Below are positions 8,367-25,355 of a stretch of DNA of 55,376 nt, piece after piece. Positions within the stretch are counted from its first letter, which is position 1, and every line of letters starts with the position of its first letter. Under the pieces are notes generated by a model. It worked only from the letters and a program-made list of their open reading frames with translations, searched no databases and was not told the DNA's origin. The stretch is taken from NCBI GenBank assembly GCA_000998425.1, contig LCDG01000006.1, positions 1 to 55,376 of the forward strand, in the 5' to 3' direction. Origin of the DNA: Candidatus Nomurabacteria bacterium GW2011_GWC2_42_20 (GTDB taxonomy: Bacteria; Patescibacteriota; Minisyncoccia; Phycocordibacterales; UBA1550). Made by a program: the position numbers and the translations under genes.

Positions 8367-9335
8367 ATGCTCGACTACAACATTACATTGCCATCGAAGC
8401 CAAAAGTTCTCTCTGAGGACGGTTTTAAGGGGAGTTACGAGATTGAAAGTCTTTATCCTGGATACGGTCACACTCTAGGTAACTCACTTCGTCGCATTAT
8501 TCTTTCATCACTTTTGGGTGCAGCAATCACCACAGTAAAGATTGATGGTGTTTCGCATGAATTTTCTACACTAAACGGTGTAAAGGAGGATGTTATTACA
8601 ATCCTTCTAAATCTAAAGAAAGTCCGCTTCAAGCTTTCTACAATGGATCCACAGACAATAACCCTTTCGGTTAAGGGTGCAAAAGATGTTACTGCAGGTG
8701 ATATTAAGGTTTCTGGCCAGGTGGAAGTTTTGAACGGAGATCAACATATTGCAACACTAACAGACAAGAACGCGTCACTCGATATTGAAATCGTTGTGGC
8801 AAAGGGCTTTGGGTACGTGTCAAAGGAGGTTCACCAGAAGGAAAAAGTCGATATTGGCACCATTGCTGTGGATGCGATTTTTACGCCAATTCGTCGTGTG
8901 AACTACGAAGTGGACAATATGCGTGTTGGCGACCGTACAGATTTTAATCGTTTGCGTATCACAGTAGAAACAGACGGCACAATCACTCCTCGTCGCGCAC
9001 TAGAGGCATCTATTGAAATTATGGTAAACCAACTCAAATCAGTTATTGGCTTCGTTGAGAAAGCAGAAGTAGAGGCAGAGGATACCTCAGATAAAAATGA
9101 GGAGAAACCTGCAAAAAGGGACACAGCTGACAATGATTTCCTAAAGACTCGTGTTGAGAACCTTGATTTGTCCACTCGCACAAACAATGCGCTTTCTAAC
9201 GCAAATATTCGCACAATAGGCGGTCTTGCGCGCAAAACAGAAGAAGACCTTCTTGAAATTGACGGTCTAGGGGACAAGGGTATTCAAGAGATCAAGCGCG
9301 CGCTTTCTGCTCACGACATAACTCTTAGGGCGTAA
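8367..9335 (+). CDS. rpoA: DNA-directed RNA polymerase subunit alpha
   Basis: 322 aa. The N-terminal dimerisation domain includes the YPGYGHTLGNSLRRIILSSL signature (about residues 30-49). A charged linker (residues 230-255) leads to the C-terminal DNA- and regulator-binding domain with two helix-hairpin-helix motifs (LSNANIRTIGGLARKTEEDL, IDGLGDKGIQEIKRAL). The intact C-terminal domain implies UP-element or activator contacts are possible. Gene order S4-alpha-L17 is the conserved alpha operon. Confidence 0.98.
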   Translation: MLDYNITLPSKPKVLSEDGFKGSYEIESLYPGYGHTLGNSLRRIILSSLLGAAITTVKIDGVSHEFSTLNGVKEDVITILLNLKKVRFKLSTMDPQTITLSVKGAKDVTAGDIKVSGQVEVLNGDQHIATLTDKNASLDIEIVVAKGFGYVSKEVHQKEKVDIGTIAVDAIFTPIRRVNYEVDNMRVGDRTDFNRLRITVETDGTITPRRALEASIEIMVNQLKSVIGFVEKAEVEAEDTSDKNEEKPAKRDTADNDFLKTRVENLDLSTRTNNALSNANIRTIGGLARKTEEDLLEIDGLGDKGIQEIKRALSAHDITLRA

Positions 9336-9360
9336 TTAATTTGAAATAAACACCACTATC

Positions 9361-9723
9361 ATGAAACATCATAAGTCGATTCGAAAATTTGGACGAGATC
9401 ACGCAGGGCGTATTGCACTCCTTCGCTCCCTTGCTCTTTCTCTTATTAAAACAGAACATATAGAGACTACTGAGGCTAGGGCCAAAGAACTTCGTCCTTT
9501 TGTGGAGAAGCTTGTGACACGTGGTGTAATGGCAGACCTTGCGTCTCGTCGTCTCATTATTTCACGCCTCGGTGGTGTGTCTGGGGAGGACGGAGCAAAG
9601 AAGCTTATTGATGAAATCTCGCCCCGTTACAAAGAGCGTGCCGGTGGGTATACACGCATTTTGAAGCTTCCTCGCCGTCAGGGAGACGCATCAAAAATGG
9701 CTGTTATTGAATTCGTGAATTAG
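9361..9723 (+). CDS. rplQ: 50S ribosomal protein L17
   Basis: 120 aa. The N-terminus MKHHKSIRKFGRDHAGRIAL and the block TTEARAKELRPFVEKLVT identify L17, which lies near the exit tunnel on the large subunit. The C-terminus GGYTRILKLPRRQGDASKMA is also typical. It follows rpoA by 25 bases. Confidence 0.98.
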   Translation: MKHHKSIRKFGRDHAGRIALLRSLALSLIKTEHIETTEARAKELRPFVEKLVTRGVMADLASRRLIISRLGGVSGEDGAKKLIDEISPRYKERAGGYTRILKLPRRQGDASKMAVIEFVN

Positions 9724-18308: not shown

Positions 18309-18355
18309 GCTACGCTGGTAGGCCCATGGTATTAATTTGCTAATTCAGCACCGCC
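18309..18355. repeat. 47-bp direct repeat, copy A
   Basis: Pairs with copy B at 18436-18482; about 37 of 47 positions match by eye, with GGTAGGCCCA exact in both. The sequence is GC-richer than its surroundings. It lies in the 400-base gene-free stretch 18268-18668. Confidence 0.7.
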
Positions 18356-18434
18356 AATCTGGCTCGATCCTGCGTACACGCGGTGCAAGCCAAAATAAAA
18401 AACACACCACGATGGTGCACGCCTTTTGTTTTGA

Positions 18435-18449
18435 TGCTCCGCGGGTAGG
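18435..18449. repeat. Putative left attachment site (attL)
   Basis: TGCTCCGCGGGTAGG, identical to 25182-25196. It lies at the boundary between the peptidase region and the accessory genes. Confidence 0.6.
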
Positions 18450-18482
18450 CCCAAGGCATGAACTTGCTAGTTTAGGATCGCC
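18436..18482. repeat. 47-bp direct repeat, copy B, overlapping the putative left attachment site
   Basis: Second copy of the repeat at 18309. Its first bases coincide with the 15-bp sequence shared with the 3' end of tRNA-Asn. Further downstream (18512-18560) an inverted repeat AGAAACAAAA/TTTTGTTTCT encloses a small GC hairpin, a possible terminator. I see no convincing gene in 18268-18668. Confidence 0.65.
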
Positions 18483-18668
18483 CCTTCGGGTCGACACTAT
18501 CTTAGACTCAAAGAAACAAAAAAGCCCCAACGCATTAGCGTCAGGGACTATTTTGTTTCTGGCTCACTTTAGTCGACGACTTTAGAACTGTTAATTGGTT
18601 GGAAGAGTATCCGTTCCCAGAAACAGATTTAAGGGAATTAAAAGAATTACTAATAGCCTAACGTATTT

Positions 18669-19256
18669 TTATGCTTTTACTCCAGCTCGTGCGGGGAACT
18701 CATATATAAATTTCAAAAGCATTTCTAGGAAGGTCATTATCTCCTCTGCATCTTCTTTTTTCTTAATGACTATTTCATGATTTGCTTCGTTTCCGTGAGA
18801 ACGAATTTTATCAACCCATTCTTTGCTGTTAGGCGGAGCATAGTGGTTGTCTACAAGATAATTAACATACTCAAGGAACGACAACCCTTCCTTTGCGCCC
18901 TGAGCAACACCAATGTGCATCAAAAGTTTTCTTCCGGTTAACACAGCAGAGGAGTATGCTCCATGACTTGTCGATTCTCTAATTTCTGACCAAATAGTCT
19001 CTATTTCAGTTGGCAAGTTTTTCACAACGTTTCCCAATGAGACTCCTGGAACTTGAGTACCAGTTTCGAGATCAAAAAAAGTCGGACGTTTACAAAATGG
19101 GCATATTTGAATAAGGCCATCGATAGCCCCATTGTCATTTCTTTGATGAAACCAGCCTTTTTCCGAACCGATATCTTTCCCGCAAGCCGAATAACCACAT
19201 GTGTAGTTTTTTGCTGTCATTTCTACTACGTTCTGCCAATTTTTTTGTGCCTGCAT
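18669..19256 (-). CDS. DUF4145-domain protein with N-terminal zinc-finger-like cysteines
   Basis: 195 aa. Four cysteines in CGYSACGK and ICPFCKRP (about residues 20-25 and 52-55) suggest a zinc ribbon. The rest, from LPTEIETIWSEIRESTSHGA through SAVLTGRKLLMHIG to a helical C-terminus with HGNEANHE, fits DUF4145, a domain often found beside or fused to restriction and other defence enzymes. No nuclease domain is attached. It is the leftmost gene of the putative element, on the opposite strand from the recombinase. The biochemical role is unknown. Confidence 0.7.
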   Translation of the reverse strand: MQAQKNWQNVVEMTAKNYTCGYSACGKDIGSEKGWFHQRNDNGAIDGLIQICPFCKRPTFFDLETGTQVPGVSLGNVVKNLPTEIETIWSEIRESTSHGAYSSAVLTGRKLLMHIGVAQGAKEGLSFLEYVNYLVDNHYAPPNSKEWVDKIRSHGNEANHEIVIKKKEDAEEIMTFLEMLLKFIYEFPARAGVKA

Positions 19257-19319
19257 TTCTTACTTATACCACAGAATATAGTGTTTTGGAATTAAGGGGT
19301 TTAGGTGTAGTGTGAAAAT

Positions 19320-19742
19320 ATGGACCCCCAAAATACACGCCCTTGGTATCAAAAGAAGCGATACCTGATCCCGGTTGGAGTAGTTGTCTTGATGACCTTG
19401 TCAGATGGCAGTAATACACCACAGAATCAGCCTACACAAGGGGTAACTCCTGCGACATACCAAACAGAGGTGCATGCGAATACGACCTCGCAAAGTCCAC
19501 AACCGCCTGCTTCTTCCGAAAGTATTACGCAGAAAAGCGTCGTTCCGTCTACGTATACTAGCCCAGGGTTATCAAATGATAATTACTATACAAACAGCGC
19601 GGGGAACGAAGTACATTCTCCCGCTTATTCAAATACAGTTCCAGATGGAGCTTCTGCTCAGTGTCGTGATGGCACGTACAGTTTTAGTCAGTCACGGCGT
19701 GGCACTTGCTCGCATCATGGTGGTGTCTCTGTGTGGTTATAG
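19320..19742 (+). CDS. DUF3761-domain secreted or anchored protein
   Basis: 140 aa. An N-terminal basic stretch and a short hydrophobic segment (YLIPVGVVVLMTL, residues 15-27) suggest a signal or anchor. A Thr/Pro/Ser/Gln-rich spacer follows, then the C-terminal cysteine motif CRDGTYSFSQSRRGTCSHHG ending GVSVWL, which is the DUF3761 signature. The two Cys could form a disulphide outside the cell. The function of the family is unknown. It converges with the three-gene operon, only 5 bases away. Confidence 0.75.
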   Translation: MDPQNTRPWYQKKRYLIPVGVVVLMTLSDGSNTPQNQPTQGVTPATYQTEVHANTTSQSPQPPASSESITQKSVVPSTYTSPGLSNDNYYTNSAGNEVHSPAYSNTVPDGASAQCRDGTYSFSQSRRGTCSHHGGVSVWL

Positions 19743-19747
19743 TTAAA

Positions 19748-20368
19748 CTATTCTTTCTGGTCATCTGGTAATCCTATTCGAGAAAGATAATTTGAAAATC
19801 TTTGAGATAGGCGCTCCCTATATAATTCACGTAAAGACCCAAGATAGGACTTGTGATAGTTCATCACAAGTGCCTCTAGTGGAATGGTATGAAAACGTTT
19901 AAAATCGATGATCATTTCGGGGAAAATTCGAGACGCATCATCTCCAAAGGCACTGAGATAGTGATATCTATGGTATCTTTCATTTAGAATTAGATGTTTA
20001 AGGGCGCTGGCTTGTCCCTTTTTCCCGTCAAAGTCGTTCATTTTTCTTTCCTCAATATGTTGACCCTCTAAAAACTTTTCATGAGGATATGCTGGGCAGA
20101 CAAGAATTGTATCTAATATCTTATCATCACTTTTTTTAGACAGAGCTTCATCTGTCCCTATTGCATCCAGCTGCAAGTTCTTCTTTAGTTGGTTATAGTG
20201 TTGAGAAAGATCACATGCCTGTGTTAAAACAACTGCGTATGGGAATGGGAACTGAATGAGAAGATCGCCATCATCTGAAGGTATCTTATACGAAAAAGAG
20301 AGGTCTCGAAAAATGTCACCTTGGCTAATCTCTGTATTTTTTGACTGAATGTAATGTTGAGATTCCAT
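19748..20368 (-). CDS. Conserved hypothetical protein of the TIGR04255 operon (third gene)
   Basis: 206 aa from the ATG at 20368 (a TTG at 20395 would add 9 residues). It is not assigned to a named family. Notable blocks: EISQGDIFRDLSF, PYAVVLTQACDLSQHYNQ, DTILVCPAYPHEKF and LNERYHRYHYLSAF. The phrase VVLTQACDLSQ resembles a motif I recall from hypothetical proteins of mobile regions, without a known activity. It overlaps the preceding small gene by 44 bases in another frame, indicating tight coupling in one operon. Confidence 0.65.
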   Translation of the reverse strand: MESQHYIQSKNTEISQGDIFRDLSFSYKIPSDDGDLLIQFPFPYAVVLTQACDLSQHYNQLKKNLQLDAIGTDEALSKKSDDKILDTILVCPAYPHEKFLEGQHIEERKMNDFDGKKGQASALKHLILNERYHRYHYLSAFGDDASRIFPEMIIDFKRFHTIPLEALVMNYHKSYLGSLRELYRERLSQRFSNYLSRIGLPDDQKE

Positions 20369-20531
20369 TTGTGGATCTAATAACCGTTCTAACAATTTTT
20401 GATGATGGATACTGAATAGAATCTACCACAAATACCTCGTTTTTGGATACAGCTTCCTCTTTATAGGAACCAGTATTGATTATAAAGCTGTCATTTTCGT
20501 AGGATACTGTATTGTTAGTTTTTTTGTTCAT
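20325..20531 (-). CDS. Small hypothetical protein, middle gene of the TIGR04255 operon
   Basis: 68 aa, MNKKTNNTVSYENDSFIINT at the start; not recognised. It begins one base after the stop of the TIGR04255 gene and its 3' end overlaps the next gene by 44 bases. The spacing supports translation, but the protein has no diagnostic motif. It is polar, without a membrane segment, and could be an adaptor or an antitoxin-like partner; that is inference only. Confidence 0.55.
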   Translation of the reverse strand: MNKKTNNTVSYENDSFIINTGSYKEEAVSKNEVFVVDSIQYPSSKIVRTVIRSTNGISTLHSVKKYRD

Positions 20532-20532
20532 T

Positions 20533-21303
20533 TTATTTTTTCGACATTAGCTTTCTTAGCTCTGGCTTAATACTCATTTCAAATAGGTCCTGAATGAACA
20601 CATTGTAATTTCTCACTGTTTCAGCAATAACGTCTTCAGATGACAATGGGAATCTCGAGAAGCAATCATAGTCGAGAATAAACTCCTTCCTAGTGTTTTC
20701 GTTTGGGTGGTCTTGGTTCCATATACCATATCTGAACCTTAGGTCAGCTTCGTCGTATTTAAGATCAAGTTGAGTCATTGCTCGCGAAATCATCTTCTTA
20801 GTTTTTCCTCCAAATTTTACGGCACCGAGTAGGTTCTCTGCGATATAGTCAGACCAATTAAAGTTAGTCTTTATGAAATTTAAATCAACTCGATTGATGT
20901 AGCGCAAGCCCAATCTGTTGATTGTTGTAATATCAAATGTGCCTACAAAATCACGAATAACAGTATCGCAATCTTTCATCAATTCATTTTTGTCCTTGTA
21001 ACTTCTGTCTCCATACTCGATGATTATGAAATCACCCGAAATTGTCAATTTCTTTTTTCTTGTGGCGCTGAGGAATTCCCACACTTTAACGCTACTTGTA
21101 TCATTTTGAACAGAGTTCTTTTTAAGATCAAATTCCAATTTCCCCTTGATTGCATCTTTTTGTTCTTGAAAAGGGAAATCGCCTTTTATTTTTGTTGAAA
21201 ATGAAGATAAGTTTTTCAGCTCTATTTGCTCAAAGTCGAGCCTCAAAACAACCTTATCAAGAAAATTTTGTTTATAACTTGCCTTGTTTTTCTTCGTGTT
21301 CAT
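20533..21303 (-). CDS. TIGR04255-family protein
   Basis: 256 aa, matching the sporadically distributed TIGR04255 family: an N-terminal FLDKVVLRLDFEQ strand, a central beta-rich region with VWEFLSA and ISGDFIIIEYGDRSYKDKN, then TTINRLGLRYINRVDL (about residues 125-140), the family's most recognisable block. The C-terminus is helical (YNVFIQDLFEMSIKPELR). The biochemical function of the family is unknown and its patchy distribution suggests horizontal transfer. It is the first gene of a three-gene operon. The 160 bases upstream (21304-21464) hold its promoter region and no other gene. Confidence 0.75.
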   Translation of the reverse strand: MNTKKNKASYKQNFLDKVVLRLDFEQIELKNLSSFSTKIKGDFPFQEQKDAIKGKLEFDLKKNSVQNDTSSVKVWEFLSATRKKKLTISGDFIIIEYGDRSYKDKNELMKDCDTVIRDFVGTFDITTINRLGLRYINRVDLNFIKTNFNWSDYIAENLLGAVKFGGKTKKMISRAMTQLDLKYDEADLRFRYGIWNQDHPNENTRKEFILDYDCFSRFPLSSEDVIAETVRNYNVFIQDLFEMSIKPELRKLMSKK

Positions 21304-21464
21304 ATCGTTGTGACCAGTATAACAGATTTATTATATAGTAGGCATCATTCCGTTGCTGTTTGCTTGTTACTATTGCATAAAATGGTGTAAAAATCTAGGT
21401 ATAACAAAAGTTATCCTTCCTACTTACAAGGCCATGTTGCAGCGATGTCTATCGTAGAAAGTTA

Positions 21465-21752
21465 CTATAAGCTGTCGTTTTTTAGTGAATGTTCTTCCTC
21501 AAGGGCTGTGATTGCCAATTTTTGGATTTTATTTTTTTCGTTCGTAATGTGTTTAATGTGTGCCTTTTCCTTAAAATGTTGTACAGCTACAGAAAGAAAG
21601 GATACCCCAAGAATTATACCGGTCAATAAGTAAAGTACATTTTGAACATTCAAAAAAAGATTGCCAGCATAATTCCACAGAAGAAGTGAGCCACCAAAAA
21701 GGATAACTAAAACAAATACACCCTCGAAGTCTTTATTGCTGTTTTTATTCAT
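21465..21752 (-). CDS. Small two-helix membrane protein of the element
   Basis: 95 aa from the ATG at 21752. Two transmembrane helices, about residues 12-32 (VFVLVILFGGSLLLWNYAG) and 37-57 (VLYLLTGIILGVSFLSVA), then a charged coiled-coil-like tail (KEKAHIKHITNEKNKIQKLA). It is not recognised. Small two-helix proteins with a cytoplasmic tail occur as immunity, holin-like or effector proteins; nothing here decides between them. The longer frame upstream overlaps an inverted repeat and is less likely. Confidence 0.55.
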   Translation of the reverse strand: MNKNSNKDFEGVFVLVILFGGSLLLWNYAGNLFLNVQNVLYLLTGIILGVSFLSVAVQHFKEKAHIKHITNEKNKIQKLAITALEEEHSLKNDSL

Positions 21753-21841
21753 AAGTTTTGCGGGATTATATATTTGTGGCAAACAAAAAGCCCACCACAT
21801 GGTCAACGGCCGAAACCGTTCATATCGGTTTCCCGATATGG

Positions 21842-21887
21842 CCCGCAAAGACAACCCCATATGATGGGTTCTTTATGTCTTTGCGGG
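21842..21887. promoter_or_regulatory. Inverted repeat in the divergent control region of the element
   Basis: CCCGCAAAGACA (21842-21853) pairs with TGTCTTTGCGGG (21876-21887) around a 22-base spacer that itself has CCCATATGATGGG. It lies in the 220-base gap between the divergent membrane-protein gene and the 249-residue gene, so it may be an operator or an RNA hairpin. Confidence 0.5.
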
Positions 21888-21972
21888 ACTTCTTTTGCCA
21901 TGCCGCCGATTTCTCGATGGTTTAGGCTACTTCTCTATTCAGTTGTGGTAAAATTGTAGCACAGAGCTGACT

Positions 21973-22722
21973 ATGTTTAAAGGACTTAAAAACGGAAAGA
22001 AGAAGGCATATGAGATTTATGATCGAGCGTGTTGGCGTGAGGGATTCAACGATGACCTCGCTGCTTTTAGGGGGAAATACGAAATTCCGAAACTAGATGA
22101 GGAGAAACAAAATAAAAAGGATATTGAAGATTTGCTTTTGAAGTATTTTGTATCAGCGATGGACAATCTGCACTCAATGCCTGTTGCAGGTGATGCAGAC
22201 AAGGGTCCAGGGCCACAATATCTTAAGGACCGAATCATGTTTCTCAACAAATATGGCTTTCCATCCGTTTCTTTTGGGGATGCAATGGACGCAATTTTAC
22301 TCGAAGAGGTGCCTGCATACCAACCATTCGAAGTGTCTGCTGTTTCGGAAGTTACCTTGTTGGAAAATGCTGGGGCGCAACTTTGTCTACAGGTTGACGC
22401 TCTTGCAAGTAGAGATGAGACTCTCGAATATATAAGAAAAAACTGGGGTGCTATGCAAAAACTTCTTCTCGGGATGGTCCACAAAAGAAAGAGGGTCAAG
22501 ACGAGGGGCAACAGAGATCGAGACAAGCTTATCTATGATTACTATACATACTATAAAAAGCATCCCAAAGAATGGAAAGGTGCACACGCGTACCCTTTGC
22601 AAGCTGTCATTCAAAAACTTCTTGAAGATGGGTACCCTAGATTAAACATAGAAGCAATCAACCAGTCTTATCGAAGGGAAAAGAAACGCAGAGTGAAAGT
22701 CGGGCGTAAACAGACTGGTTAA
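21973..22722 (+). CDS. Hypothetical protein with a basic, possibly DNA-binding C-terminus
   Basis: 249 aa; not recognised. The N-terminal 150 residues are mixed helical. Residues ~165-249 are strongly basic (HKRKRVKTRGNRDRDKLIYD at the start, RREKKRRVKVGRKQ at the end) with a helix-turn-helix-like stretch PLQAVIQKLLEDGYPRLNIE. It would suit a regulator or replication/excision accessory protein. It is the first gene of the rightward block leading to the recombinase. Confidence 0.55.
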   Translation: MFKGLKNGKKKAYEIYDRACWREGFNDDLAAFRGKYEIPKLDEEKQNKKDIEDLLLKYFVSAMDNLHSMPVAGDADKGPGPQYLKDRIMFLNKYGFPSVSFGDAMDAILLEEVPAYQPFEVSAVSEVTLLENAGAQLCLQVDALASRDETLEYIRKNWGAMQKLLLGMVHKRKRVKTRGNRDRDKLIYDYYTYYKKHPKEWKGAHAYPLQAVIQKLLEDGYPRLNIEAINQSYRREKKRRVKVGRKQTG

Positions 22723-22752
22723 GTGTCTCTAATTTCTCGCTTGTTTTTAAAG

Positions 22753-22784
22753 ATACTGTGATCATACCAATCACGGTATTTTTT
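22753..22784 (+). terminator. Terminator or attenuator directly before the 57-residue gene
   Basis: ATACTGTGAT (22753-22762) pairs with ATCACGGTAT (22770-22779, one G-T pair), followed by six T. The T run ends at the base before the ATG at 22785, so the hairpin could end the upstream transcript or attenuate the downstream genes. Confidence 0.65.
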
Positions 22785-22958
22785 ATGTCTGAGCTGGTCA
22801 AAACAAACGAAAACATTTTAGATCGAGATATTGTCTCGTTCTTTGATTTGCTTGCTCGTTTTGATTATGAGGACAAACAAAAAGAAGGGTCGTTGTTCAA
22901 TTCTGGCTCCTCAGTCTCAGCTCCTGAGGGGTCGGAATTGGACAAAGATAATAAATAA
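22785..22958 (+). CDS. Small acidic hypothetical protein
   Basis: 57 aa from the ATG at 22785 (MSELVKTNENILDRDIVSFF), acidic and polar, not recognised. It lies between the terminator-like hairpin and the winged-helix gene, 4 bases before that gene's ATG. The spacing makes it a plausible gene; there is no domain evidence. Confidence 0.45.
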   Translation: MSELVKTNENILDRDIVSFFDLLARFDYEDKQKEGSLFNSGSSVSAPEGSELDKDNK

Positions 22959-22962
22959 AATC

Positions 22963-23469
22963 ATGACAGAGCTGAAAGATGGACACTGGTTCGCAGTTGA
23001 TAATAAATTTATTGATTCTTATGCGTCTCATTTTAGCCCTGCTACAATTGCAGTATATGTTGCTATCTTGAGGTTTAGATTTGGTAGTACAGATAGGGCC
23101 CGCATCTCGCAGGATTCTTTATCTAAAAAACTGGGAATTAGCCGAGAAGCTGTTGGTAGAGTTTTAAAAACTTTAGTTGCTCATTCTCTTTTGCGGGTTG
23201 AGAAAATTAAACGGAATAACGGTACATGGTCTTACAATGAATATCTTGTAATTGATGAGAAGTACTGGCTTCCACCATGTGACCCTATATCACACGGGGT
23301 CGAATTAAGACCATGTGATATTTGTGCAAAAAACCATGAGACCTATCATCACACTAAAAAGACTAAATACAAAAAGACTAATAAATATAGGAATGATTTC
23401 CTTTTGGAAAACAGAAGAGAACTCGCTGCTGGCTTCAAAATGGGCAAAAGGAACACTGGTTATGGATAA
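22963..23469 (+). CDS. Winged-helix DNA-binding protein (replication- or regulator-like)
   Basis: 168 aa from the ATG at 22963. Residues ~15-105 form a winged helix: DSYASHFSPATIAVYVAILR, then the recognition block ISQDSLSKKLGISREAVGRV and a wing VEKIKRNNGTWSYNEYLV. A second part has HxC/CxxC-like residues (PPCDP, RPCDICAKNH), a possible zinc site, and a basic tail. The pattern resembles phage/plasmid replication-initiation or regulator N-domains. The three repeats just downstream could be its binding sites. Confidence 0.65.
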   Translation: MTELKDGHWFAVDNKFIDSYASHFSPATIAVYVAILRFRFGSTDRARISQDSLSKKLGISREAVGRVLKTLVAHSLLRVEKIKRNNGTWSYNEYLVIDEKYWLPPCDPISHGVELRPCDICAKNHETYHHTKKTKYKKTNKYRNDFLLENRRELAAGFKMGKRNTGYG

Positions 23470-23476
23470 ACGTAAG

Positions 23477-23592
23477 TGCTGGCAAAGGTTTGCATTTTGT
23501 AACATACCGTGGCATTTATCGGAGGGATGTTGTGTTAGCAAATGTTAGCTTTTCCTAGGGGGGGGTAGTTTGTTGGCAAAGGTTGACATTTT
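23477..23592. repeat. Three iteron-like 22-bp direct repeats upstream of the recombinase
   Basis: Copies at 23477-23498, 23533-23554 and 23571-23592 share TGyTrGCAAAkGTT followed by an AT-rich end; copies 1 and 3 match at 19 of 22 positions. They fill the 175-base gap between the winged-helix gene and the recombinase. They may be operator, replication or recombination sites. Confidence 0.65.
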
Positions 23593-23644
23593 TAATGAGT
23601 GTACCGTTTTTAGAAAAGGTTATTTTAAGTTAAAATATAAACAT

Positions 23645-25195
23645 ATGAAATCTATAATTTATTGCCGTGTCTCATCTCGAGAGCAAGAAGAAACAGGATA
23701 TTCGTTGGAATCTCAGGAGAAGTTTTTGAAAGAATACGCGGATAAGCAAGCTTTTGCTATAGCAAAAGCTTATAAGGTCACCGAGTCAGCAAGTAAATGG
23801 CAAATTCGCACAACCCTAAAGGAGATGCTTGAATATGCGGAGGAAAACAATATCAATGTTATTCTCGTTGAAAAGATTGACCGCTTAACTCGTAGTCTCA
23901 AGGATGCGGCAATTGTTAATGATTGGGTTCACCAAAGAGGTGAACGAGAGGTTCATTTTACTAAAGAGAATTTTGTTCTAAGTAAAAATACCCGGTCTCA
24001 CGAAAACTTGGTTTGGGATATGAAAGTTGCCATCGCTCGTTTCTATACGAACAATCTCTCAGAAGAAGTAAGGAAGGGCCAGAAGGAAAAAATTGCACAA
24101 GGATGGCTTCCAACAAAGCCTCCACTTGGGTACAAGACGGTTGGAGAAAAAGGTCACAAGATTCATGTTGTTGATGAGGATAAAGCGCCCTTTATTAAAA
24201 AAGCATTTGAACTTTATGCAACCGGCAACTTCTCTCTTTTGTCATTGCGCGAAAAACTTTATACCGATGGCTTGCGCACGCGAGTGGGAGCAAAGCTTTC
24301 AAAGAGTCGCCTTGAGGATATTCTGAGGGACCCATTTTACTGCGGTTCTATGCGATGGAATGATGTCGTGTATCAACACGGAAGACATGAGCCCCTTGTC
24401 TCAAAGGATCTCTTTGAGAAGGTTCAGTATTCTCTAACCCGCAAAAGTGCGCCACACTATCGACGACATCTCTTTCAATTCAGCAAGATGATTAACTGTG
24501 GCGAGTGTAATGGTACCGTGAGCGCGGAAATGCAAAAAGGTTATGTGTACTATTCGTGCAAGCATGCCCGAGGATGCAATCAAAAAGGGATGACACGAGA
24601 AGAGAAAATCGAGAATGCCATTATCGGGGTATTCAAGATTTTTGAGAGCATGACGGAGGAAGAGGCTCAGGAAATTTACCGTAGAATTAGAGAGGACCAC
24701 AAAGCAGAGGCTGACTACAAGGAAAGCGCCATTAAGACCCTTAACGACCGTTACAGCTCACTACAGAGGCGTTTAGATATACTTTACGATGATCGTTTGG
24801 CAGAGAAAATAAGCCAGGAGCGCTGGCAAGGTAAACAGGATGAGATGGTACGTGAACAAACCGAGATACAGGCTCAAATCGCTAAAATTAAGCGCGAGGA
24901 GACGAAGTATTTTGAAGTGTATATAAACATTCTTGACCTAGCGCGTCGTGCTCGAGAAATTTATGAAAAGCGAACACCGGAAGAGAAACGACTTTTAATT
25001 TCGCATCTTTTTTCGAACCTCGTCTTAAAAGACAAAGAAGCTAGTTATTTATTGAAGAAACCAGTCGAGCTGTTCGCAAAAAGAGTCCAAGAGAAGATTG
25101 ACTCTCAAAAGAAGTTCGAACTCGAGAAAAGCGTTGGTAATAAAAGAAAAAACAGGGCTTTTGACCCTGCTTCTTCACCTTTGCTCCGCGGGTAG
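23645..25195 (+). CDS. Large serine recombinase (site-specific integrase)
   Basis: 516 aa. The N-terminal resolvase domain starts IIYCRVSSREQEETGYSLES, where the Ser in RVSS is the expected nucleophile, with LVEKIDRLTRSLKD further on. The recombinase domain (GWLPTKPPLGYKT, GLRTRVGAKLSKSRLEDILR) and the zinc ribbon (CGECNGTVSAEM, YYSCKHARGC, about residues 285-320) follow, then a long coiled coil. All are diagnostic. It likely integrates and excises the element. Its last codons overlap the 3' end of tRNA-Asn, so excision would change the C-terminus of the recombinase or the tRNA end. The ATG at 23645 gives the family N-terminus. Confidence 0.95.
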   Translation: MKSIIYCRVSSREQEETGYSLESQEKFLKEYADKQAFAIAKAYKVTESASKWQIRTTLKEMLEYAEENNINVILVEKIDRLTRSLKDAAIVNDWVHQRGEREVHFTKENFVLSKNTRSHENLVWDMKVAIARFYTNNLSEEVRKGQKEKIAQGWLPTKPPLGYKTVGEKGHKIHVVDEDKAPFIKKAFELYATGNFSLLSLREKLYTDGLRTRVGAKLSKSRLEDILRDPFYCGSMRWNDVVYQHGRHEPLVSKDLFEKVQYSLTRKSAPHYRRHLFQFSKMINCGECNGTVSAEMQKGYVYYSCKHARGCNQKGMTREEKIENAIIGVFKIFESMTEEEAQEIYRRIREDHKAEADYKESAIKTLNDRYSSLQRRLDILYDDRLAEKISQERWQGKQDEMVREQTEIQAQIAKIKREETKYFEVYINILDLARRAREIYEKRTPEEKRLLISHLFSNLVLKDKEASYLLKKPVELFAKRVQEKIDSQKKFELEKSVGNKRKNRAFDPASSPLLRG

Positions 25196-25196
25196 G
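25182..25196. repeat. Putative right attachment site (attR) in the tRNA-Asn 3' end
   Basis: TGCTCCGCGGGTAGG, identical to 18435-18449. It covers the acceptor-stem 3' strand and part of the T-stem of tRNA-Asn, and also the last codons of the recombinase. Confidence 0.6.
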
Positions 25197-25255
25197 GATC
25201 GAACCTACGACCAAGCGATTAACAGTCGCTTGCTCTACCACTGAGCTACCGCGGA
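25184..25255 (-). tRNA. tRNA-Asn (anticodon GTT)
   Basis: Read on the minus strand: acceptor TCCGCGG/CCGCGGA, D arm TAGCTCAGTGGTAGAGCA, anticodon stem-loop with CTGTTAA giving anticodon GTT, T arm with GGTTCGATCC. The 3' CCA is not encoded. It overlaps the recombinase stop region by 12 bases on the opposite strand. Confidence 0.95.
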
Positions 25256-25270
25256 ATTTTTAATTGTGTA

Positions 25271-25355
25271 TCCTTGAACCTCAAACCTTCGTAACTCCAT
25301 CCGACTGTTAAACAGTCGCTTGGCTAATTTCTATTGTCACTGACCCACTGCGGAA
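25271..25355 (-). pseudogene. Degenerate tRNA-Asn-like remnant
   Basis: The segment resembles the neighbouring tRNA-Asn: it shares ACAGTCGCTTG around the anticodon arm and CACTGA...GCGGAAT at the 5' end, but has an insertion in the D-arm region and no proper T arm or acceptor stem. CGACTGTT/AACAGTCG can form a perfect 8-bp hairpin. It could be a duplicated tRNA or the scar of an earlier insertion. Confidence 0.45.

Follow-up and report, generated by a model that had tools for sequence, protein, structure and literature searches.

We describe an integrated element of 6,621 bp in Candidatus Nomurabacteria bacterium GW2011_GWC2_42_20 that appears to carry its attachment site in the 3' part of its own serine-integrase gene, an anatomy to which we assign a probability of roughly 85% on the basis of DNA sequence. 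The stretch analyzed (hereafter the window) comprises 55,376 nucleotides (contig LCDG01000006.1 of assembly GCA_000998425.1, positions 1 to 55,376). Within it the element occupies 18562-25182, counting one copy of its core, and abuts the gene for tRNA-Asn(gtt) (25183..25255, minus strand), the predicted integration target. These limits follow from the core and the reading frame, and from the loss of similarity to a same-genus genome, G009, which fades at 18565. Labels beginning with G denote related genomes, and those beginning with L denote the loci or contigs examined.

At its tRNA end the element encodes a large serine recombinase (LSR) of 516 amino acids (23645..25195, plus strand; phrog_95, 1.7e-77), with Pfam matches over cut-off to Resolvase (1.3e-24), Recombinase (3.4e-16) and Zn_ribbon_recom (1.9e-7). 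The domain order is that of LSRs: Resolvase, Recombinase and zinc ribbon, followed by a coiled coil (long helices in the AlphaFold model of the relative L053). The stop codon (TAG, 25193-25195) falls within tRNA-Asn, and an LSR stop lay inside an ARAGORN tRNA in 23 of 37 LSR loci (a count that omits fragments L075 and L076); the others comprised one open reading frame (ORF) running through the tRNA (L060), five running off the contig and eight without an overlapping tRNA. ARAGORN named the 24 tRNAs as Asn (11), Gln (7), Glu (1) and an intron-bearing 'Thr' (5) of doubtful identity, and Rfam placed group I introns in the LSR-side target tRNA at L210:15720-15953, L041:11681-11981 and L207:1289-1545. 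The LSR clade was detected in 14 of 397 genomes of the order and 13 of 179 genera (profile A2, E<=1e-120), with relatives including Taylorbacteria (L040), Zambryskibacteria (L041) and Nomurabacteria (L054). Among phage records, 450 matched the LSR, all at <60% identity.

Just inside the left end of the element, an ORF without a start ends in FRTVNWLEEYPFPETDLRELKELLIA and a stop, and resembles the C-terminal tails that are fused to LSRs in L053, L044 and L200. This detached LSR C-terminal tail (18563..18661, plus strand; HMM searches, see below) terminates at TAA 18659-18661; the ORF to the right of GGCTC has no ATG before the tail motif and encodes LTLVDDFRTVNWLEEYPFPETDLRELKELLIA up to its stop. 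The same kind of ORF end was first spotted by eye in L048 and L049. A hidden Markov model (HMM) of the tails from the window, L048 and L049 recovered L046, L067, L054, L135, L040 and L073, and weakly L045 and L053, while a second HMM built with added tails recovered L199, L203, L207, L210, L200, L044 and L201. Among these loci, L054/L199 and L040/L210 are second views of one place (L040 being G022). The tails of L122, L131 and L043 were found by eye.

The position of the tail relative to a short core connects the two ends. The left core GCTC (18562..18565, plus strand) lies 19 nt 5' of the tail motif, the element's own left end being 18562-18566, and the right core GCTC (25183..25186, plus strand) is the final four bases of tRNA-Asn; a segment identical to the tRNA 3' end, 4 nt in the window, is thus repeated at the far end of the element. 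Across loci, 13 of the 15 detached tails had a tetramer precisely 19 nt 5' of their motif (GCTC in 11, GCTG in one and GTGC in one), and the core followed the adjoining tRNA: GCTGG at Gln (L067), GTGC at Tyr (L203) and GCTC at Asn. In 10 of the 11 loci tested, the core of the right junction (4-11 nt) recurs before the tail and joins it to the LSR in frame; the 10 include L046, where the right junction is a second tail and not a tRNA, and the failure is G022. Tail distance tracked LSR distance (Mantel r=0.574, p=0.0012, 11 loci), and five related tails differed mostly at third codon positions (e.g. 3/2/12 across the three positions). LSR and tail form one ORF in L053 (556 amino acids), L044 (diverged distal LSR), L200 (diverged LSR), L050 (cut by the contig end) and L043 (another tail type); L073 has two tails and a broken LSR. 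Because of the core at -19, the in-frame joins and the co-variation of tail and LSR, the most likely place for the element's attachment site (attP) is within the LSR gene, and integration would exchange the tail for codons antisense to the tRNA.

Several observations weigh against this reading. The core is only 4 nt long, and out-of-frame matches of 4-7 nt occur near some junctions, with some longer ones (L048, L067). Two detached tails lack a core at -19 (ATCC in G022 and GTTT in G005), and G022 is the closest complete relative. There is no GCTC at the fused junction in L200, L053 or L073, and a TGA separates the LSR from the second tail in L046. AlphaFold leaves the tail of L053 undefined, drawing two helices at a predicted local distance difference test score (pLDDT) <50. 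Among the genus loci checked, there was no clean empty site with exactly this flank, and among L040-L078, many of which are not whole contigs, no contig had terminal repeats; no circle was seen.

The route we infer from this anatomy, with its circle, its recombination, an active enzyme and any effect of tail loss, would run as follows. In a circular form, translation of the LSR would continue past the core GCTC into ~30 amino acids of conserved tail, and the LSR would recombine its own attP with the terminal bases of tRNA-Asn. Once integrated, the gene would borrow its final codons and its stop from the tRNA, and the tail codons would remain, without a start, at the far end of the element ~6.6 kb away. 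The element would also supply a new terminator for the tRNA, antisense in the LSR codons, the old one being pushed to the left flank. In the window, a terminator-like hairpin lies antisense inside the LSR codons (25138..25176, minus strand; hairpin scan), and a second, putatively the displaced terminator of the tRNA, lies on the host side of the left end (18514..18549, minus strand; hairpin scan and G009 conservation). A hairpin followed the tRNA inside LSR codons at 21 of 25 right junctions, a chosen set that does not include L051, L052 and L061 (5.0 expected from mononucleotide shuffles), and a hairpin was present at 10 of 13 left junctions (1.2 expected, likewise).

The tail itself may take part in integration or its direction, in which case the integrated LSR would stay altered until a tailed LSR acts, whether from an excised circle, a tandem neighbor or a newcomer; we place this just short of even odds. 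We would also propose, tentatively, that the LSR clade has a built-in switch, in which the tail is present only in the circle or a tandem, is lost on integration at any of several tRNA genes, so that the element is locked in, and is restored by a tandem neighbor or an incoming relative, which releases the element, with the LOOT RNA described below as a conserved RNA of such elements. There is a considerable chance, if less than one in two, that the anatomy is as described and tail loss is without effect, attP simply occupying a dispensable gene end: the catalytic, zinc-ribbon and coiled-coil parts are whole in the integrated LSR, and the changed integrase of phage Mx8 is, as far as PMC6070905 describes it, altered and not inactivated. 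However, the tail sequence is kept among LSRs that are 37-82% identical, with third-position-biased change, which argues that selection acts on the tail in some state. A decayed, immobile remnant is unlikely; the failure to see a circle, and the tail scars without an LSR in the stretches read of G003 and G005, would fit decay, but against it stand an uninterrupted, full-length LSR, an intact in-frame tail and the presence of both ends. It is highly improbable that the tail is a separate small gene, such as a directionality factor, rather than the LSR C-terminus: its detachment in every integrated locus and its protein-level conservation would fit such a gene, but 10 of the 15 detached tail ORFs have no ATG before the motif, and the same tail sequence is fused to LSRs at the same spacing.

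The initial annotation had already recognized an integrative element at tRNA-Asn whose tRNA end carries a large serine recombinase, and our analysis agrees; the left boundary at 18435 and the size of ~6.7 kb proposed there give way to the limits above and a 4-bp core. They had been drawn from a 15-bp direct repeat, TGCTCCGCGGGTAGG, which is real and exact (18435-18449 and 25182-25196) and cannot be put down to chance, because its last 14 bases have exact matches at only two places in the 678,769-base assembly. It does not mark the end of the element, however, and belongs to a chromosomal repeat found beside tRNAs. An element spanning 18435-25196, with the repeat as the core of the attachment (att) site, would draw on this exactness and uniqueness and on 15 bp being a plausible core length, but we consider it very improbable, and rejected the repeat as an att site. 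The left copy is of a repeat kind that occurs beside 12 of 38 tRNAs, mostly without a recombinase, the sequence to its right is host DNA shared with G009 up to 18565, and a copy of this kind lies outside the tail in both L048 and L049. In G009 the same M14-peptidase gene is flanked by a conserved counterpart of ~18475-18565 (18504-18565 matching at 92% over 62 nt), and similarity fades after the GGCTC at 18565. Without 18562-25182, the left 15-bp copy would sit 112 nt from the tRNA-Asn 3' end. Were the repeat the crossover, the integrase would be unchanged, since its TAG lies both in the tRNA and in the repeat; under the corrected boundaries, integration does alter the integrase end. The earlier suggestion that integration reshapes the integrase is thereby upheld as regards the stop within the tRNA and the altered C-terminus, but the route differs, the tail codons being left at the other end. 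A first search for repeats at tRNA ends, with a 10-nt minimum, found almost nothing because the cores are short (4-7 nt).

The chromosomal repeat (R unit) that is the source of the 15-bp repeat covers 18436..18500, and a second, older R-like unit covers 18309..18400, both outside the element and delineated by repeat comparison; the stretch opened by the left 15-bp copy resembles 18309-18367 (75% over 59 nt). The 12 of 38 tRNAs in the genome counted above have a copy of their own 3' end <=400 nt downstream at a score >=12, direct (8) and/or inverted (6); no sequence was available downstream of Ser-cga, and tRNA-Asn itself scores <12 in its present interrupted state. Upstream, none of the 38 had such a copy, the full 400 nt being present for only 18 of them (median 270), and mismatched pairs of tRNA and flank yielded 21 of 1312 (1.6%). 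R-unit copies begin at the T-loop and surround a conserved hairpin. Further units were seen at L151:7092-7600 and 9190-9450 and in L212, L215-L219, L221 and L228, the repeat being known from this genome and genus. In the stretches scanned, Rfam gave no family at the R units at the gathering threshold; the units may represent tiny mobile elements or trailer structures. Their identification as integron-like cassette sites was not supported, several standing beside tRNAs without a recombinase among the ORFs listed.

The tRNA-Asn locus appears to be a recurrent site in the genus. In 8 of the 10 genus loci checked, that of the window included, pyruvate kinase is the neighbor of the tRNA. Other LSRs lie at tRNA-Asn in G014 and G002, and G007 has one within 0.6 kb of it. 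G003 and G005 have a tail scar to the left of tRNA-Asn, and G009 and G011 have one next to the peptidase. The initial annotation had suggested searching relatives for an uninterrupted tRNA-Asn locus; no clean empty site with exactly this flank was found, as stated above. In G003, G013, G004 and G005, the tRNA runs on without interruption into a terminator-like hairpin (by eye) and a repeat that has tRNA-end copies. A ~0.8-kb mini-insert at tRNA-Asn in G003 (L122:3621-4416) has a tail scar at its start, a small ORF inside and a second R unit at its end, with no LSR. A decayed copy of tRNA-Asn lies on the 5' side of the gene in the window (25289-25355; 25289-25322 is 71% like 25199-25232), and similar sequence was seen by eye beside the tRNA in G013, G010 and G005. 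A contig of G014 (G014:C20:1-1535, L138) terminates with 30 bases of tRNA-Asn next to a further LSR, and the whole tRNA-Asn of that genome, on C8, has an LSR too; the two contigs perhaps represent a tandem array cut by assembly.

The element also carries a LOOT RNA (RF03000; 21805..21928, minus strand; Rfam, 83.5 bits), as do other LSR loci (7 of 18 scanned, window included). Across 61 genomes, 37 copies exceeded the cut-off, and none was found in 14 control genomes. LOOT RNA copies were within 8 kb of an LSR in 27 of 37 cases (2.05 expected, using rounded genome sizes; 8 kb was one of four limits tried), all 27 upstream and 26 of them on the opposite strand; 19 lay within 3 kb, and seven had no LSR on their contig. 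The count leaves out a below-cut-off match in G006, and each LSR place was entered once, without its second pieces and without some weak LSR hits.

The remainder of the element encodes about nine further ORFs besides the LSR, close to the ten or so accessory genes first annotated. From the left end, these encode a DUF4145 protein (18669..19256, minus strand; phrog_1305, 5.5e-20), a DUF3761 protein also found in the G022 element (19320..19742, plus strand; Pfam 2.8e-24; 53%), two proteins of 215 and 68 amino acids without a family match in four libraries (19748..20395 and 20325..20531, both minus strand; ORF list), a TIGR04255 family protein (20533..21303, minus strand; 6.2e-29), a 131-amino-acid ORF whose start is doubtful, as it overlaps the LOOT RNA (21465..21860, minus strand; ORF list), a 249-amino-acid protein common to the G022 element (21973..22722, plus strand; 30%), a small ORF of 66 amino acids common to the G022 element (48%) and L041 (22758..22958, plus strand), and a winged-helix protein like phage replication initiators (22963..23469, plus strand; phrog_270, 1.4e-8). 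Four genes besides the LSR are common to the window and G022 elements. No case of cargo genes at other sites without a recombinase was met, not every cargo gene having been searched for. As initially annotated, no conjugation genes or relaxase were matched among the ten window-element proteins in four libraries; in single scans of ten relatives' proteins, a type IV coupling protein appeared in L053 only.

Twelve elements judged complete measured 6.6-11.8 kb, the right ends of L044 and L046 not being at a recognized tRNA. A Pfam scan of 100 chosen proteins from the complete elements and L053 (25 of 82 families listed) returned, among the matches listed, DUF5659 (5), DnaG-type zinc fingers (3), HTH_36 (3) and AAA_25 (2), along with methylases and AlwI, Mrr and Shedu domains. 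NrS-1, Eco57I and reverse-transcriptase domains were also found in relatives' proteins scanned singly. In the G022 element, a reverse transcriptase (RVT_1, 3.8e-23) lies beside a repetitive ORF (L210:10372-11959) and might, as a guess, belong to a diversity-generating retroelement. Candidate replication genes are that of the winged-helix protein in the window and those with AAA_25, DnaG-type zinc fingers and the NrS-1 domain in relatives. The elements probably spread as small replicating or mobilized circles.

Archaeal tyrosine integrases, phage Mx8 and one streptococcal serine-integrase element are precedents for a self-splitting integrase, the last two of them from bacteria. Archaeal 'suicidal' (SSV-type) integrases are described as having the recombination site in the integrase gene, such that integration, often at tRNA genes, splits the gene (PMC8371274). 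The element described here would share an attP inside its own integrase gene and the splitting of that gene on integration. SSV-type enzymes are, however, tyrosine recombinases that lose function-bearing parts, according to the same source, whereas this element carries serine recombinase domains, and its LSR would keep the catalytic part and lose a C-terminal tail. In Myxococcus phage Mx8, attP lies inside int and integration gives int a new 3' end (PMC6070905), but Mx8 is a phage and uses non-tRNA sites, as far as that account goes. The streptococcal element IME_Spy2096_SNF2 has a serine integrase with the recombination site in the integrase gene (PMC5357655); in contrast to the elements here, it is a single element in the protein gene snf2, for which the passages concerned describe neither tRNA targeting nor a detached conserved tail. 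Integration-dependent immunity of mycobacteriophages, as outlined in PMC9262239 and PMC8092301, involves an attP in a gene and integration at a tRNA that removes a C-terminal tail and changes protein behavior, but there a repressor gene is the one split, and the phages use a tyrosine-type integrase. No description of this LSR clade, its detached tail or LOOT RNA in LSR elements was found among the matches listed from the open-licence literature searched, itself weak evidence, and the word 'tRNA' was not found in the main text of PMC10083194.

Among Patescibacteria and their relatives, serine integrases thus appear to show the same self-splitting logic, at tRNA-Asn, -Gln and -Tyr genes. The scar of core plus tail marks the left ends of such elements, even where the LSR is gone, and the tie of LOOT RNA to LSR elements gives this RNA family a testable context. 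If one enzyme occurs naturally both with and without its tail, the control of direction in serine integrases would become testable.

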